Source of the DNA: Clostridiales bacterium | GTDB lineage: Bacteria; Bacillota; Clostridia; DUPQ01 | DNA: 64,000 nucleotides | Direction: 5' to 3' | Assembly: GCA_023145435.1 (NCBI GenBank) | Contig: JAGLDS010000002.1 | Location: 76,675-140,674, forward strand | Shown: piece by piece, positions 5,941-10,439 of the stretch | How the letters are laid out: each line of letters starts with the position of its first letter | Numbering within the stretch: the first letter of the stretch is position 1 | Notes under the pieces: generated by a model | What the model saw: only the letters and a program-made list of their open reading frames with translations | What the model was told of the DNA's origin: nothing | Database searches by the model: none | Translations under genes and position numbers: made by a program

Positions 5941-5954
5941 AATTATACTCCTTA

Positions 5955-6007
5955 TAGTAAACGTTTACTAATATTTATAATTATATATTTATTTTTAGAA
6001 AAAGCAA
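5955..6007 (-). promoter_or_regulatory. Promoter and LacI-type operator of the 5940-253 operon
   Basis: On the minus strand TTGCTT (6002-6007) and TATAAT (5980-5985) are separated by 16 bp. About ten bases downstream, over the expected transcription start, is the perfect 16-bp palindrome TAGTAAACGTTTACTA (5955-5970), with the central CG and AAACGTTT core typical of LacI/GalR operators. AAGGAG and the start codon follow. The arrangement predicts negative autoregulation. Confidence 0.83.
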
Positions 6008-6473
6008 CTACTTTATTTGTTTTTTAATAGGAAATTTTAGAATATAAAAGGAAAAAATTCTTTCCTGCTTTTTTTAGCTGCTAGTGTAATTGAAGTACTT
6101 AATACTCCATTATATATTTCGTTATTATAATTTTTTTACTACAAATAGTTTACAAAAGGATTTCGTCACCACCATGACCCTTTGAAGAAATATTAATAAT
6201 TAGTCCTATTCAATATTTTTAGTACCAAAGCATTATATCAGTTGTTTTCATATTTAGATAATTTTTTACAAAAAAAAATAACAAAACCTTGTGTTAAATT
6301 ATTTATTTTCTATGTATTATTGTTCTCCCACTCGCCACATAGACGAGTGGTGAACAACAGCTTAAGGGATATATTTGTATACTAATCAAAGTACATAATG
6401 GAATTATATGGTATATGTCTTTTCATTCATAGTGCCATAGGATACTAATTACTATGACCTTTGTATAATATCG
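6008..6473. other. Gene-free AT-rich stretch with one strong hairpin
   Basis: No ORF with a ribosome binding site or recognisable protein is visible here. The notable element is an imperfect inverted repeat at about 6320-6358, whose GC-rich core CCACTCG / CGAGTGG encloses a 9-base loop and whose outer arms TTGTTC / GAACAA also pair. It has no adjacent T-run on either strand, so it is not a standard terminator. It could be a structured 3' end of the sensor-kinase transcript or a small RNA element. Confidence 0.45.
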
Positions 6474-8198
6474 TTAGTTACTTTCGGACAGAATAGGAAT
6501 TGATACTTTGATATAAAACCCTTCATCTTCTATTGATTTAAAGGTTATTTTCCCATTTAATTCTTGAATTCGTTGTTCCATACCACTTAAGCCGTTTCCT
6601 TTAGTAATTGTTAGTGAACCATTTCCATCATCAAATATATTTAGCGATAATTTATCATCTTTATATTTTATAATTAGGTAAATATTTTCAGCTTCTGCAT
6701 GCTTTAAAGCATTTGTAATAGCCTCTTGACATACTCTATATATAGCATTGTACACATGAACTGGAATCATCTTATAAATCCCCTTCACAGTAATTTCTAC
6801 CTCTAACCCACTATTTTTAACATTATCACCTAATCTAATTAGTTCTTGTCTTAAACGAAGAAGTGACACACTTTCATAAACTTGTTCTTCATCAATAGAT
6901 TTGCTTAATTGACTCATACCTTTTCGTACAATTGTTTTAATATCTTGAATATTATTTAATGTTGTTTCATTATCTTGATTAAAAGTATCAATGCAGTACT
7001 GTAATTTAATATTAGTAACTGTTAAGGTATGACCTAATATATCATGTAGTTCTTTTGCTAATGCATTTCTCTTTTCTAATGAATCAATTGTTTTAATATC
7101 ATTTATATGGTTTTCTAATCGTACTCTAGTTTTTGTTAATTCAATATTTTTCTTTTTTAAATCTTCTTGCATTGTAATATATTCACTAATATCTCTAAAA
7201 ATTAGTATATATCCAGTTATATTACCTTGATAATCATAAGTTGTACTTTCAACTACATTTACATATACCTGATCTTCTTGTTCCTTTTCTAATTTATGAT
7301 TACTCTCAATATAGCTGCCAGGTAACAATTTCTTTAACTCAAGTAATCGCTGAAATGCCATATTACTATCATCTTTAATAGTTCCAGGATAAGCTTTTTT
7401 TAATAAATTGCGAAAGTTTTGATTAGAAGTAATTATTTTCTTTTCTTTATTTAAAATAACTACACCTTCTTGTAGATTGTTTATAGCTTTATCAATCCCA
7501 TATGATTCAATATTAAATAATTTATTTGTGAAAAGATAATATCCTACAAGTATCATACATATACTAGATATAGCTATAAAAAAATCAGCAATTAAATTAT
7601 CAATTAATAAATAGTTAATAGATTTCCCAACTAAAATAAGAAATAGAATTATTAATGAAGCAGTAGTATTATTAATAATAGTTTTTGTTTTACTTTGTCT
7701 TTTAAAAATAAAAATAATCATACCAATAAATATATAAATATCAGCAATAGATGAATTAATATAATAAAACAAATTACCAGTTATAATGCCAACAGATATT
7801 TCACTAAGGAATAACGAATGAATTGGATTACTTAAAATTATCAAAAATGTAAATAAAGGATAAATAGAAAGTAAGATAATTACAATTGGATTTAAAAGCC
7901 TATCAGTCATGTAATAATAGACAAAGCAAATAAATATTACACTGGTTATACTAATAGCTAGATATTTAATAATATTTAAAACATATGTAAAGCTAATAGA
8001 AGAGGCTAAAATCAATAGAATTGTTGCAAATAAGGATACCAGCAAAAGAGAACTTAAACCTACATAAAAATTCCGCATTGTGCTTTCCTTTGCATTCACT
8101 AAAATATAAATCATGAAGAATAATGAAATAAATAATATAATAGTATAAATAATCTCTAACGAGATAATATATGATAGTGACAAAGACGTTAGAATCAT
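6474..8198 (-). CDS. Membrane sensor histidine kinase (HisKA_3 type) with PAS domain
   Basis: A 574-residue NarX/DesK-type kinase. Residues 1-230 hold about eight hydrophobic segments, like the 7TM-type sensor region. A PAS-like domain follows (VVILNKEKKIITSN to ILIFRDISEY), then a short coiled coil, the dimerisation helix with phospho-acceptor H385 in AKELHDILGH, and a HATPase domain with N-box EAITNALKHA and G-box DDGNG / GNGLSGM. All catalytic elements look intact. It lies seven bases after the response regulator gene and shares its upstream architecture with the degenerate kinase at 8857-10182, suggesting duplication within one operon. AGGAGA precedes the ATG. The signal is unknown. Confidence 0.9.
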   Translation of the reverse strand: MILTSLSLSYIISLEIIYTIILFISLFFMIYILVNAKESTMRNFYVGLSSLLLVSLFATILLILASSISFTYVLNIIKYLAISITSVIFICFVYYYMTDRLLNPIVIILLSIYPLFTFLIILSNPIHSLFLSEISVGIITGNLFYYINSSIADIYIFIGMIIFIFKRQSKTKTIINNTTASLIILFLILVGKSINYLLIDNLIADFFIAISSICMILVGYYLFTNKLFNIESYGIDKAINNLQEGVVILNKEKKIITSNQNFRNLLKKAYPGTIKDDSNMAFQRLLELKKLLPGSYIESNHKLEKEQEDQVYVNVVESTTYDYQGNITGYILIFRDISEYITMQEDLKKKNIELTKTRVRLENHINDIKTIDSLEKRNALAKELHDILGHTLTVTNIKLQYCIDTFNQDNETTLNNIQDIKTIVRKGMSQLSKSIDEEQVYESVSLLRLRQELIRLGDNVKNSGLEVEITVKGIYKMIPVHVYNAIYRVCQEAITNALKHAEAENIYLIIKYKDDKLSLNIFDDGNGSLTITKGNGLSGMEQRIQELNGKITFKSIEDEGFYIKVSIPILSESN

Positions 8199-8205
8199 AA
8201 TTCTC

Positions 8206-8844
8206 CTAAATAATATCGTGTTTTAATGCGAATACAACTAGTTGAGTTCTATCTTTTACATCTAATAAATTTATCATCTTAGATACTCTGTTCTTAATTG
8301 TACCCTCAGAATAATTTAATGCTTTAGCAATTTCACGATTTGTTTTCCCCACACTAAGCATTTCTAATACTTTTATGTCTTCAACTGAAAGTTCAACATC
8401 AATTTTTTCGTAATCAGTAAAGCTTTTACCTCCTAATTGAGTCATGAAATGTTCCATTATATTTCGCTGAATTACACATAATCCATTTACAGTAAGCCTA
8501 ATGGCTTCCATCAAATCTTTTGGATTAGTGTTTTTAAGTAAATATCCATCAACTCCCATTGCAAAAGCTTCAAAAATACTTTCATTGTCTTCATATGAAG
8601 TTAAAATAATAATTTTAATACGAGGAAATTCTTTTTTTAATTCTTTAGAAGCTTTAATTCCATCTAATTCTGGCATCTTTACATCCATTAATACAACATC
8701 AGGATATGCAGTTTTACATACTTCAATGGCTTCAATCCCATTTTTGGCTTCACCCACTATTCTGTACTCTTCATTTTGCTCAATAAAAGTTTTTAAGCTT
8801 TCAAGCAATAAAACATGATCATCAACAATAACTATTTTAATCAT
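8206..8844 (-). CDS. NarL/FixJ-type response regulator
   Basis: A 212-residue regulator with an N-terminal receiver domain: acidic pair DD at 8-9, phospho-acceptor D54 in VLMDVKMP, and the T/S and K switch positions in ILTS and LLKN. A C-terminal LuxR-type helix-turn-helix follows (SVGKTNREIAKALNYSEGTIKNRV). It lies between two sensor proteins, seven bases before the complete kinase and 12 after the degenerate one. The complete HisKA_3 kinase is the likely phospho-donor. Targets are not evident; the operon's own promoter is a candidate. AGGAGG precedes the ATG. Confidence 0.93.
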   Translation of the reverse strand: MIKIVIVDDHVLLLESLKTFIEQNEEYRIVGEAKNGIEAIEVCKTAYPDVVLMDVKMPELDGIKASKELKKEFPRIKIIILTSYEDNESIFEAFAMGVDGYLLKNTNPKDLMEAIRLTVNGLCVIQRNIMEHFMTQLGGKSFTDYEKIDVELSVEDIKVLEMLSVGKTNREIAKALNYSEGTIKNRVSKMINLLDVKDRTQLVVFALKHDII

Positions 8845-8856
8845 TTATTCCTCCTA

Positions 8857-10182
8857 TCATTCTTTAAGACTAGACACCATTTTTCGTACTCTATCTAAAT
8901 AATCAGTAGCTAAATTCATAACATCTTGTAATGATGCTTTTGCCTTTTCTTTATCTAAAGTTATTAATATTTCACTAGCTTCTAAACTAGTTAGTATTTG
9001 GGTCATAGTGTTTGCCAATAAATCTCTTATATCTTGAGAAATTTTCTCCTTTTTTTTCATCATACTAATATTTCTAATAATTATTTCTTGGTTTTCTAAT
9101 TCTGTATTTGCTTTATCAAGATTTAAATTCTTTTCTGTAAGTTCTTCTATCAATAATTTATACTCTGTAATATCAGTAAATGAAACAATAACTCCTACTA
9201 CTGTATTCCTTTCACCAAGAAGTTGGTTAATTGAACACAAATAATACAAATAGTCTTTCGTTTGAAAATCAAATTGAAGATTTTTATCAATTAATGAGAA
9301 AGTTAATCTCTCAAGAAAAAGTGATGGTTCAAGTAGTTGTTTATGCAATTCAACTTTTAACTGATTTTCGCTTTCAATAGATGGTATTTTCCCTAACAAA
9401 CCATTCCCATTTGAATAAACTATTGTACCATAACTATTAATAATTATTACTCCACCTCTAATAATATTTAAAGTATTTTTTTGAATATTCCCAATCATCT
9501 TAAAAGCCCATTTTCTAGAAATTGTATATAATAGAATTAACTGTTTAGAAAATAGTAGAAAATATGAAATTTCTTCATATAAGCCATTATGAAAAAACCT
9601 TGAATAGATATCAAAACATATGGGTAATAAAATCAACAAAGATAACCATATATCTTTAGCTTCTAGTTTCCCCTTCATTCTATATATAAACACATATACA
9701 ACTATTAATGAAATAAGCGCTACTATGTATTGGTATATACCTTTAGCATAATATATTAGACCATAATTAAGTTGGTAATCTATTGTACTTGTCAAAAGTG
9801 ATGTGGGCTCGATTATAATAATATTCATAAGAACAAATGGTATTGCAATCATTGAAAGCATAAATGGTAAAGATGGTGTTTTTTCCAAAACAAGTGAAAA
9901 TATTAATATTAAGAATAGGCTTTCAAGGTAGACTGTCATTATAGCACTAATTCTTGTTAAAAATATGAATTGCTCGGGCATTGCCAATAATTTCATCAAT
10001 GTAAAAAATTGAACAACAAATGCAATTAATTGATATATCATATATGGAAATATTAATTTATTTTGGCGAAGATTAGTTAAGATAATAACAGTAACATATA
10101 CAGTTAAGAACATAGAAAACATGAGTAACGCAAAGATTAGCAATTTTCCATTATTATAAAATGTACCATAGATACTACTCAT
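8857..10182 (-). CDS. Degenerate sensor kinase homologue (no His, no ATPase domain)
   Basis: A 441-residue protein. It has about eight N-terminal membrane segments (residues 1-225), a PAS-like domain (GGVIIINSYGTIVYSN to IVSFTDITEYK), a coiled coil, and a HisKA_3-like helix that ends the protein. In that helix the phospho-acceptor position is arginine (R386 in SQDIRDLLANT, against ELHDILGHT in the sister kinase), and no HATPase domain follows. It is the first gene of the operon with the regulator and complete kinase. It could form heterodimers with the kinase and tune its activity. The ATG at 10180-10182, six bases after AGAGGTGG, is a better start than the GTG nine bases upstream. Nothing suggests frameshift decay. 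Confidence 0.8.
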   Translation of the reverse strand: MSSIYGTFYNNGKLLIFALLMFSMFLTVYVTVIILTNLRQNKLIFPYMIYQLIAFVVQFFTLMKLLAMPEQFIFLTRISAIMTVYLESLFLILIFSLVLEKTPSLPFMLSMIAIPFVLMNIIIIEPTSLLTSTIDYQLNYGLIYYAKGIYQYIVALISLIVVYVFIYRMKGKLEAKDIWLSLLILLPICFDIYSRFFHNGLYEEISYFLLFSKQLILLYTISRKWAFKMIGNIQKNTLNIIRGGVIIINSYGTIVYSNGNGLLGKIPSIESENQLKVELHKQLLEPSLFLERLTFSLIDKNLQFDFQTKDYLYYLCSINQLLGERNTVVGVIVSFTDITEYKLLIEELTEKNLNLDKANTELENQEIIIRNISMMKKKEKISQDIRDLLANTMTQILTSLEASEILITLDKEKAKASLQDVMNLATDYLDRVRKMVSSLKE

Positions 10183-10439
10183 TTTAACCACCTCTGTTAC
10201 TAAAAGAGTACCATATTATAATTTGATAGACAAACTATATATCCTGTGACTTTTTAGCCTAATAAAATTAATATTTCCTGATTAAATAAATTGGTTAAAC
10301 CATCCCTTTATAATATTTAATCAAAATTTGCCAAAAAATGAAGAGTATTAAAAGAGAATTAATGAAATCGTAAATAAATTATACATCCCTTTTGAGTCGT
10401 CAATGACTGGGTTCTTATGAATTAGTGTAAGCTATATTT

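Follow-up and report, generated by a model that had tools for sequence, protein, structure and literature searches.

The stretch of DNA analysed here, hereafter the window, comprises 64,000 nucleotides of a Clostridiales bacterium (assembly GCA_023145435.1, contig JAGLDS010000002.1, positions 76,675 to 140,674) and carries a signalling locus of three minus-strand genes in the order X, RR and HK, with spacers of 12 bases (X/RR) and 7 bases (RR/HK). The gene X (8857..10182) encodes a sensor-kinase-like membrane protein that possesses neither the phospho-accepting His nor an ATPase domain; it is 441 aa long when read from the ATG at 10182 and 444 aa from an alternative GTG at 10191. RR (8206..8844) encodes a NarL/LuxR-type response regulator of 212 aa in which the phospho-acceptor Asp54 is present, and HK (6474..8198) an intact histidine kinase of 574 aa with a 7TM-PAS-HisKA_3-HATPase architecture.

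Along X, a membrane region (residues 1-225; 9508..10182) is followed by a PAS-like domain (approximately residues 236-345; 9148..9477), recognised through a weak Pfam match, and by a coiled coil with a degenerate HisKA_3 dimerisation domain (DHp; residues 346-441; 8860..9147). The HisKA_3 match scores 27.4 bits (cut-off 24) and spans residues 382-443 of the 444-aa form, and Pfam gave no HATPase match in this protein or in the other X proteins scanned. HisKA_3 is also above its cut-off in the X orthologues of genomes G003 and G001 and below it in distant X proteins, one of which (G327) matches HisKA_7TM (42.2 bits, cut-off 28.6) and neither HisKA_3 nor HATPase; it is through such family members that the membrane region of X is related to HisKA_7TM. 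In HK, HisKA_7TM, HisKA_3 (40.1 bits) and HATPase_c (35.9 bits) all exceed their cut-offs, and RR carries Response_reg and GerE. The HisKA_3 match ends at model position 56 of 68 in HK and runs to 64 in X. The two membrane proteins are only about 22% identical, and profile comparison with hhalign finds their families homologous over the membrane, PAS and DHp parts (probability 99.7%, E 9.5e-27). A first-pass annotation of this DNA had described two membrane sensors of one layout flanking a NarL-type regulator, a description borne out by the open reading frames (ORFs), the Pfam matches and this homology; its figure of about eight helices holds only as an approximation, as a hydropathy scan gives six clear membrane helices in X and seven in HK. 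Its view of the downstream kinase as intact is confirmed by H385 (7044..7046, within HDILGH) together with the HisKA_3 and HATPase_c domains. Its view of the upstream sensor, in which Arg replaces the His and the protein ends just behind the dimerisation helix, agrees with Pfam and with the alignment described next.

The closest solved DHp domain is that of DesK from Bacillus subtilis (residue numbers 188 and 235 are taken from PMC5231405), which residues 355-440 of X match without gaps through the coil, helix 1 and helix 2, including a helix-2 Arg. In this alignment, R386 of X (9025..9027) falls on His188 of DesK, as it falls on H385 of HK, whereas DesK, unlike X, is a full kinase that forms homodimers and has both His188 and a CA domain (PMC5231405, here and below in the portion of the text examined, as for the other papers cited). 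R433 of X (8884..8886) is the equivalent of DesK Arg235, and the X stop coincides with the end of the DesK DHp domain; all aligned X proteins stop directly after DHp. At the helix-2 Arg site of ordinary HisKA_3 kinases, HK carries S432 (6903..6905). The spacing between the two positions is 47 residues in each protein (DesK 188 to 235, X 386 to 433, HK 385 to 432); therefore, no gap is needed between the His and Arg columns. Because the RR gene starts 12 bases past the X stop, no ATPase domain can lie behind it, and a frameshift that hides such a domain in another frame is likewise ruled out.

Among 41 related genomes, the window's own included, full-length X is confined to the four genomes of the genus, and it was not found in any of the seven other genomes of the family, profile search included. 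The X orthologues are 90, 84 and 60% identical to the window protein and 441-448 aa long, and all four share an invariant IRDLLANTMTQ, with Arg for His and no ATPase domain; the HK orthologues are 86, 82 and 55% identical. The three genes are contiguous in G000 and G001 and are interrupted by contig ends alone in G002 and G003. In the comparison with G001, conservation within X is highest in the DHp domain (75% identical, against 60% overall), and the membrane part is 62% identical in X and 40% in HK. In the two comparisons with measurable synonymous divergence, the ratio of nonsynonymous to synonymous substitution (dN/dS) was 0.12 and 0.08 for X, 0.14 and 0.13 for HK, and 0.16 and 0.10 for PheT. 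X is thus under purifying selection, with a dN/dS as low as those of HK and PheT. The first-pass annotation had taken X for a likely functional pseudokinase and not a recent truncation, of which a full ATPase domain at this position in close relatives would be the sign; no such domain exists in the four genus proteins, and their shared loss of His and ATPase under purifying selection supports its reading. The pairing of such a protein with an active kinase moreover recurs well beyond the genus.

HK and RR profiles brought up further loci in which a membrane protein of 320-470 aa without an ATPase domain directly precedes RR. The module occurs in at least 13 of 391 genomes of the class (G000-G003, G327, G241, G054, G081, G357, G131, G140, G183 and G268), follow-up searches added G394 and G391, and at least five more (G568, G480, G625, G581 and G668) were found among 289 genomes of the phylum, as was a lone truncated X in G546. 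In total, at least 20 genomes from at least 11 families have an X that lacks both the His and the ATPase domain immediately before the RR gene, and an intact HK next to this pair. These counts are lower bounds, in that the best four or five candidates per genome were scored in the large searches and an X was accepted only after inspection of its gene context; several of the genomes are metagenome-assembled, and some loci are partial at contig ends. The 20 include G241, where X is cut by a contig end and HK lies on another contig, G131, where X occupies two ORFs, and G357, where HK is partly masked and X is identical to that of G081. At all 18 loci measured, X and RR either overlap or lie at most 29 bases apart; of the 16 loci without an interrupting contig end, 6 have HK colinear after RR and 10 have it convergent with RR. 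The distribution is patchy (two of six genomes in genus g90, one of six in family f23, three of seven in family f77). Since the neighbouring genes differ from family to family, a common regulon is not claimed, and PADLOC, consulted for a link to defence, gave no match for X or HK and only weak ones for RR.

Several candidates were rejected on inspection of their loci. G277, G329, G094, G321, G196 and G154 hold complete HK-RR pairs without X; in G184, the kinase next to such an RR is split into ORFs of 341 and 222 aa (L053:4412-6192); and G531, G566, G584 and G480:C17:1141312 proved ordinary or unrelated. Two aberrant copies of X were also seen. In G131, X is broken into two ORFs, one of 133 and one of 297 aa (L109:6025-7316), and the sequence between them is missing relative to G054, which may reflect decay or an assembly error. 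The truncated X of G546 (243 aa; L169:2733-3464) has no RR or HK beside it on its contig and looks like a decaying remnant.

The most distinctive feature of the family emerges from an alignment of the DHp domains of 19 X proteins, 20 partner HKs and 31 other kinases. The partner set consists of 18 labelled proteins plus rows L067 and L142, the partners in G241 and G357 that had first been labelled as other kinases; the partial X of G241, which lacks its C-terminus, was left out of the 19. In the His column, no X protein carries His (N in seven, R in four, K in four, Q in two, S and E in one each), and all kinases do, by construction, because they were chosen through their HD/HE motif. In the helix-2 Arg column, the pattern is reversed: Arg is present in 19 of 19 X proteins and in none of the 20 partner HKs (S4, N4, A4, K3, Q2, P1, M1, H1), whereas the other kinases carry Arg in 29 cases and Lys in two. 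In 12 divergent X proteins, invariance is limited to N352 and R433; in 13 partner HKs, the invariant residues are H385, D386, G389 and H390. Conservation of the two helices also differs between the proteins. Mean pairwise identity in helix 1 is 0.51 for HK and 0.31 for X, and in helix 2 it is 0.26 for X and 0.20 for HK. The interaction between helix and protein amounts to 0.32 over 18 matched loci, with p = 0.0001 (p = 0.0004 in a 10-locus subset) in a column permutation test that treats alignment columns as independent.

The three genes also appear to share a history. In a 34-row tree, X proteins, partner HKs and the kinases of ordinary HK-RR pairs each occupy one side of a branch (support 95/87, 97/95 and 99/99, respectively), and in a quick tree of 45 rows the ordinary kinases again group together with a support of 99. 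The regulators of X systems likewise fall on one side of a branch, at 98/95 for 17 of them against 17 other regulators and at 98/93 in a 12-row set. The X tree is for the most part matched by those of RR and HK, and many subclades are common to the three. Two that recur in all of them are G140, G568 and G480 joined by G668 and then G625, and (G183, G581) with (G391, (G268, G394)); the convergent loci also group together in each. Two rows, N_G029 and N_G004, were used for the RR trees and the Arg column but not for the HK and X trees. The simplest reading of these trees would be a single origin of the trio followed by joint inheritance.

A structural rationale for the reciprocal loss can be drawn from DesK. 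Its regulator DesR binds helix 1 of one protomer and makes minor contacts with helix 2' of the other, and Arg235 of DesK forms a salt bridge to Asp103 of the regulator (PMC5231405). As Arg235 is a helix-2 residue, it is probably contributed by the second protomer. X and HK may therefore be the unequal subunits of one sensor, a mixed dimer with a single docking site in which X gates the phosphorylation or dephosphorylation of RR, a reading to which we would give a probability of roughly 0.6. The coiled coils and DHp helices would hold the two proteins together, HK providing the ATPase domain and the helix 1 that bears the phospho-His, and X providing a helix 2 with the conserved, regulator-touching Arg. 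Because a HisKA_3 regulator docks across helix 1 and the partner's helix 2, each mixed dimer would have one complete docking site, formed by HK helix 1 and X helix 2, and the other site would be dead. The single His would be phosphorylated in cis, or in trans within transient HK pairs, and input through the membrane and PAS parts of X would gate the phosphorylation state of the NarL-type regulator in one direction or the other. Each protein has lost what the other supplies, as expected for an obligate mixed dimer and not for separate homodimers. The first-pass annotation had already suggested that the two proteins could heterodimerise; the reciprocal loss was not visible to it. A second signal input through X, which the first-pass annotation had also envisaged, is plausible given that X has membrane and PAS parts of its own and that these are well conserved.

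Several observations weigh against this mixed dimer. The X-system regulators retain the active-site Asp, Thr and Lys in 17 of 17 cases, and the residue after the Lys, which would meet the Arg, is Asp in 11, Asn in four and Ser in two; since it is Asp in just 11 of the 17, the salt bridge is not universal, and the regulators of the window genus themselves carry Asn at this place. The helix-2' contacts are termed minor in the DesK study (PMC5231405). The losses are shared by descent; thus, the 19 X proteins and 20 partner HKs are not independent events, and a Fisher's p of 3e-12 for the Arg loss ignores this common descent. In the 45-row quick tree, the support for the X group is weak (45), and two changes are required for HK owing to the separate placement of the long g46 branch. 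Autophosphorylation in trans, if that is how this kinase works, would be impossible in a dimer that has a single ATPase domain and a single His, and HK homodimers would be needed; such homodimers may exist. Finally, the sole structure model, built from the window, L013 and L014 sequences, reached a mean predicted local distance difference test score (pLDDT) of 38 and was not used for fold searches.

Among the rival explanations, the one that survives best, although it is unlikely, holds that X is a homodimeric accessory protein whose DHp helices bind the regulator and hold or dephosphorylate it, while HK remains an ordinary homodimer. All four X proteins of the window genus contain RDLLAN, which places an Asp and an amide beside the lost His, and this DxxxN resembles the DxxxQ phosphatase motif of the HisKA_3 family (PMC8199190), in which the His itself is dispensable for dephosphorylation (PMC5231405). 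However, the Asp is found in just the four genus proteins out of 19, the others carrying E, S, L, R, K, A or Q, so that DxxxN is not a family feature and phosphatase activity through it was rejected as the family's function. Helix 1 of X is also poorly conserved, unlike a helix that docks a regulator, and the loss of the helix-2 Arg from HK is left unexplained. Slightly less probable still is a role for X as a membrane-bound allosteric modulator of HK, as RocA is of CovS, acting mainly through membrane, PAS and coil contacts, with the DHp domain of X a mere dimerisation peg that does not touch the regulator. Neither the His nor, on overexpression, the CA domain is needed for RocA to function (PMC7028121), and the coils of X and HK are conserved to the same degree (0.30 and 0.29). 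Yet a peg would not predict that the helix-2 Arg is among just two invariant residues in 12 divergent X proteins, nor that precisely this Arg is lost from the partner HKs. It is highly improbable that X is a pseudogene in decay or was recently truncated, and for the window genus this is refuted by conservation: X does lack His and ATPase, and isolated decayed copies exist (the two-ORF X of G131 and the truncated X of G546, which has neither RR nor HK), but the dN/dS is about 0.1, the end point is the same in all four genus genomes and the arrangement recurs in at least 20 genomes.

Known systems resemble parts of the X-RR-HK module. The FasBCA operon of group A Streptococcus likewise encodes one regulator along with two membrane proteins that resemble sensor kinases; two-hybrid assays detected a FasB-FasC interaction and no homodimers, and FasC, which works without its kinase domain, has been proposed to be a pseudokinase (PMC12675982). 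FasC nevertheless keeps a predicted HATPase domain and a needed His (H246), whereas X has neither (R386), and the regulator FasA is of the ComE type instead of the NarL type (PMC12675982). In the portion of the literature examined, FasBCA appears to be the nearest described three-component arrangement with heterodimerisation; for X and HK, a heterodimer is proposed from gene pairing, homology and reciprocal loss. RocA, also a kinase-like membrane protein without kinase activity, binds and tunes the active kinase CovS but retains a degenerate CA domain and its His, neither of which remains in X, and a reciprocal loss in CovS is not reported in the text examined (PMC7028121). RocA is the nearest accessory pseudokinase, and X, devoid of His and ATPase, would belong to this type if it acts on HK. 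The rocA gene is located apart from covRS. DivL of Caulobacter and RetS of Pseudomonas similarly act on another kinase without catalysis of their own. The same applies to the ChrS pseudokinase of Corynebacterium, although ChrS_CA-fs is an evolved laboratory mutant (PMC9491836); for none of these three is a partner with a complementary helix-2 residue loss reported in the text examined. The nearest split kinase is CheA3/CheA4 of Rhodobacter sphaeroides, in which the functions of one kinase are divided between two obligately complexed proteins (PMC3591291). There, the phospho-His domain lies on CheA3 and the ATPase on CheA4, whereas in the X-HK pair both lie on HK and X would contribute the other half of the docking site. 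The same paper cites 1556 of 42417 HisKA proteins in SMART as lacking a HATPase domain (PMC3591291). As far as could be seen in these sources, no compared system has one subunit that has lost His and ATPase and a second that has lost the helix-2 Arg. The X-RR-HK module was not found in the literature searched (open-licence PMC papers, which does not show that it is unpublished), and the X family is apparently so far undescribed.

Histidine kinases are usually viewed as symmetric dimers that become briefly asymmetric during catalysis. The broader proposal that the X-HK pairs form a natural family of obligately asymmetric histidine kinases, with complementary loss that leaves neither protein able to form a full docking site by itself and one composite site per dimer across at least 11 bacterial families, is put forward tentatively, at a little short of even odds. 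If it is true, a naturally fixed pair, limited to a single ATPase domain and a single possible docking site, would allow the role of each half to be probed, and it would give access to cis versus trans phosphorylation, the stoichiometry of docking and the combination of two inputs. For annotation, a practical rule follows: where a truncated kinase lies beside a regulator, the neighbouring kinase should be checked for loss of the helix-2 Arg.

The surroundings of the module vary within the genus. Upstream of X, G003 and G001 carry a gene of 302-306 aa, glycoside-hydrolase-like by eye, between a thioesterase-like gene and X (L015:9295-10215; L019:8862-9770), and at this place the window (10192-10439) and G002 have just a short gap. 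After HK, G003 and G002 carry a gene that by eye resembles Gfo/Idh/MocA oxidoreductases (L016:2600-3736; L018:6039-7193); the corresponding part of the window (5941-6473) contains no ORF of at least 60 aa, and G001 is likewise without that gene. Near the module in G001, L019:14330-16000 encodes a protein of many near-identical repeats (KGLGYGADIIAGAMKAAYNLGADVVAGIL and similar).

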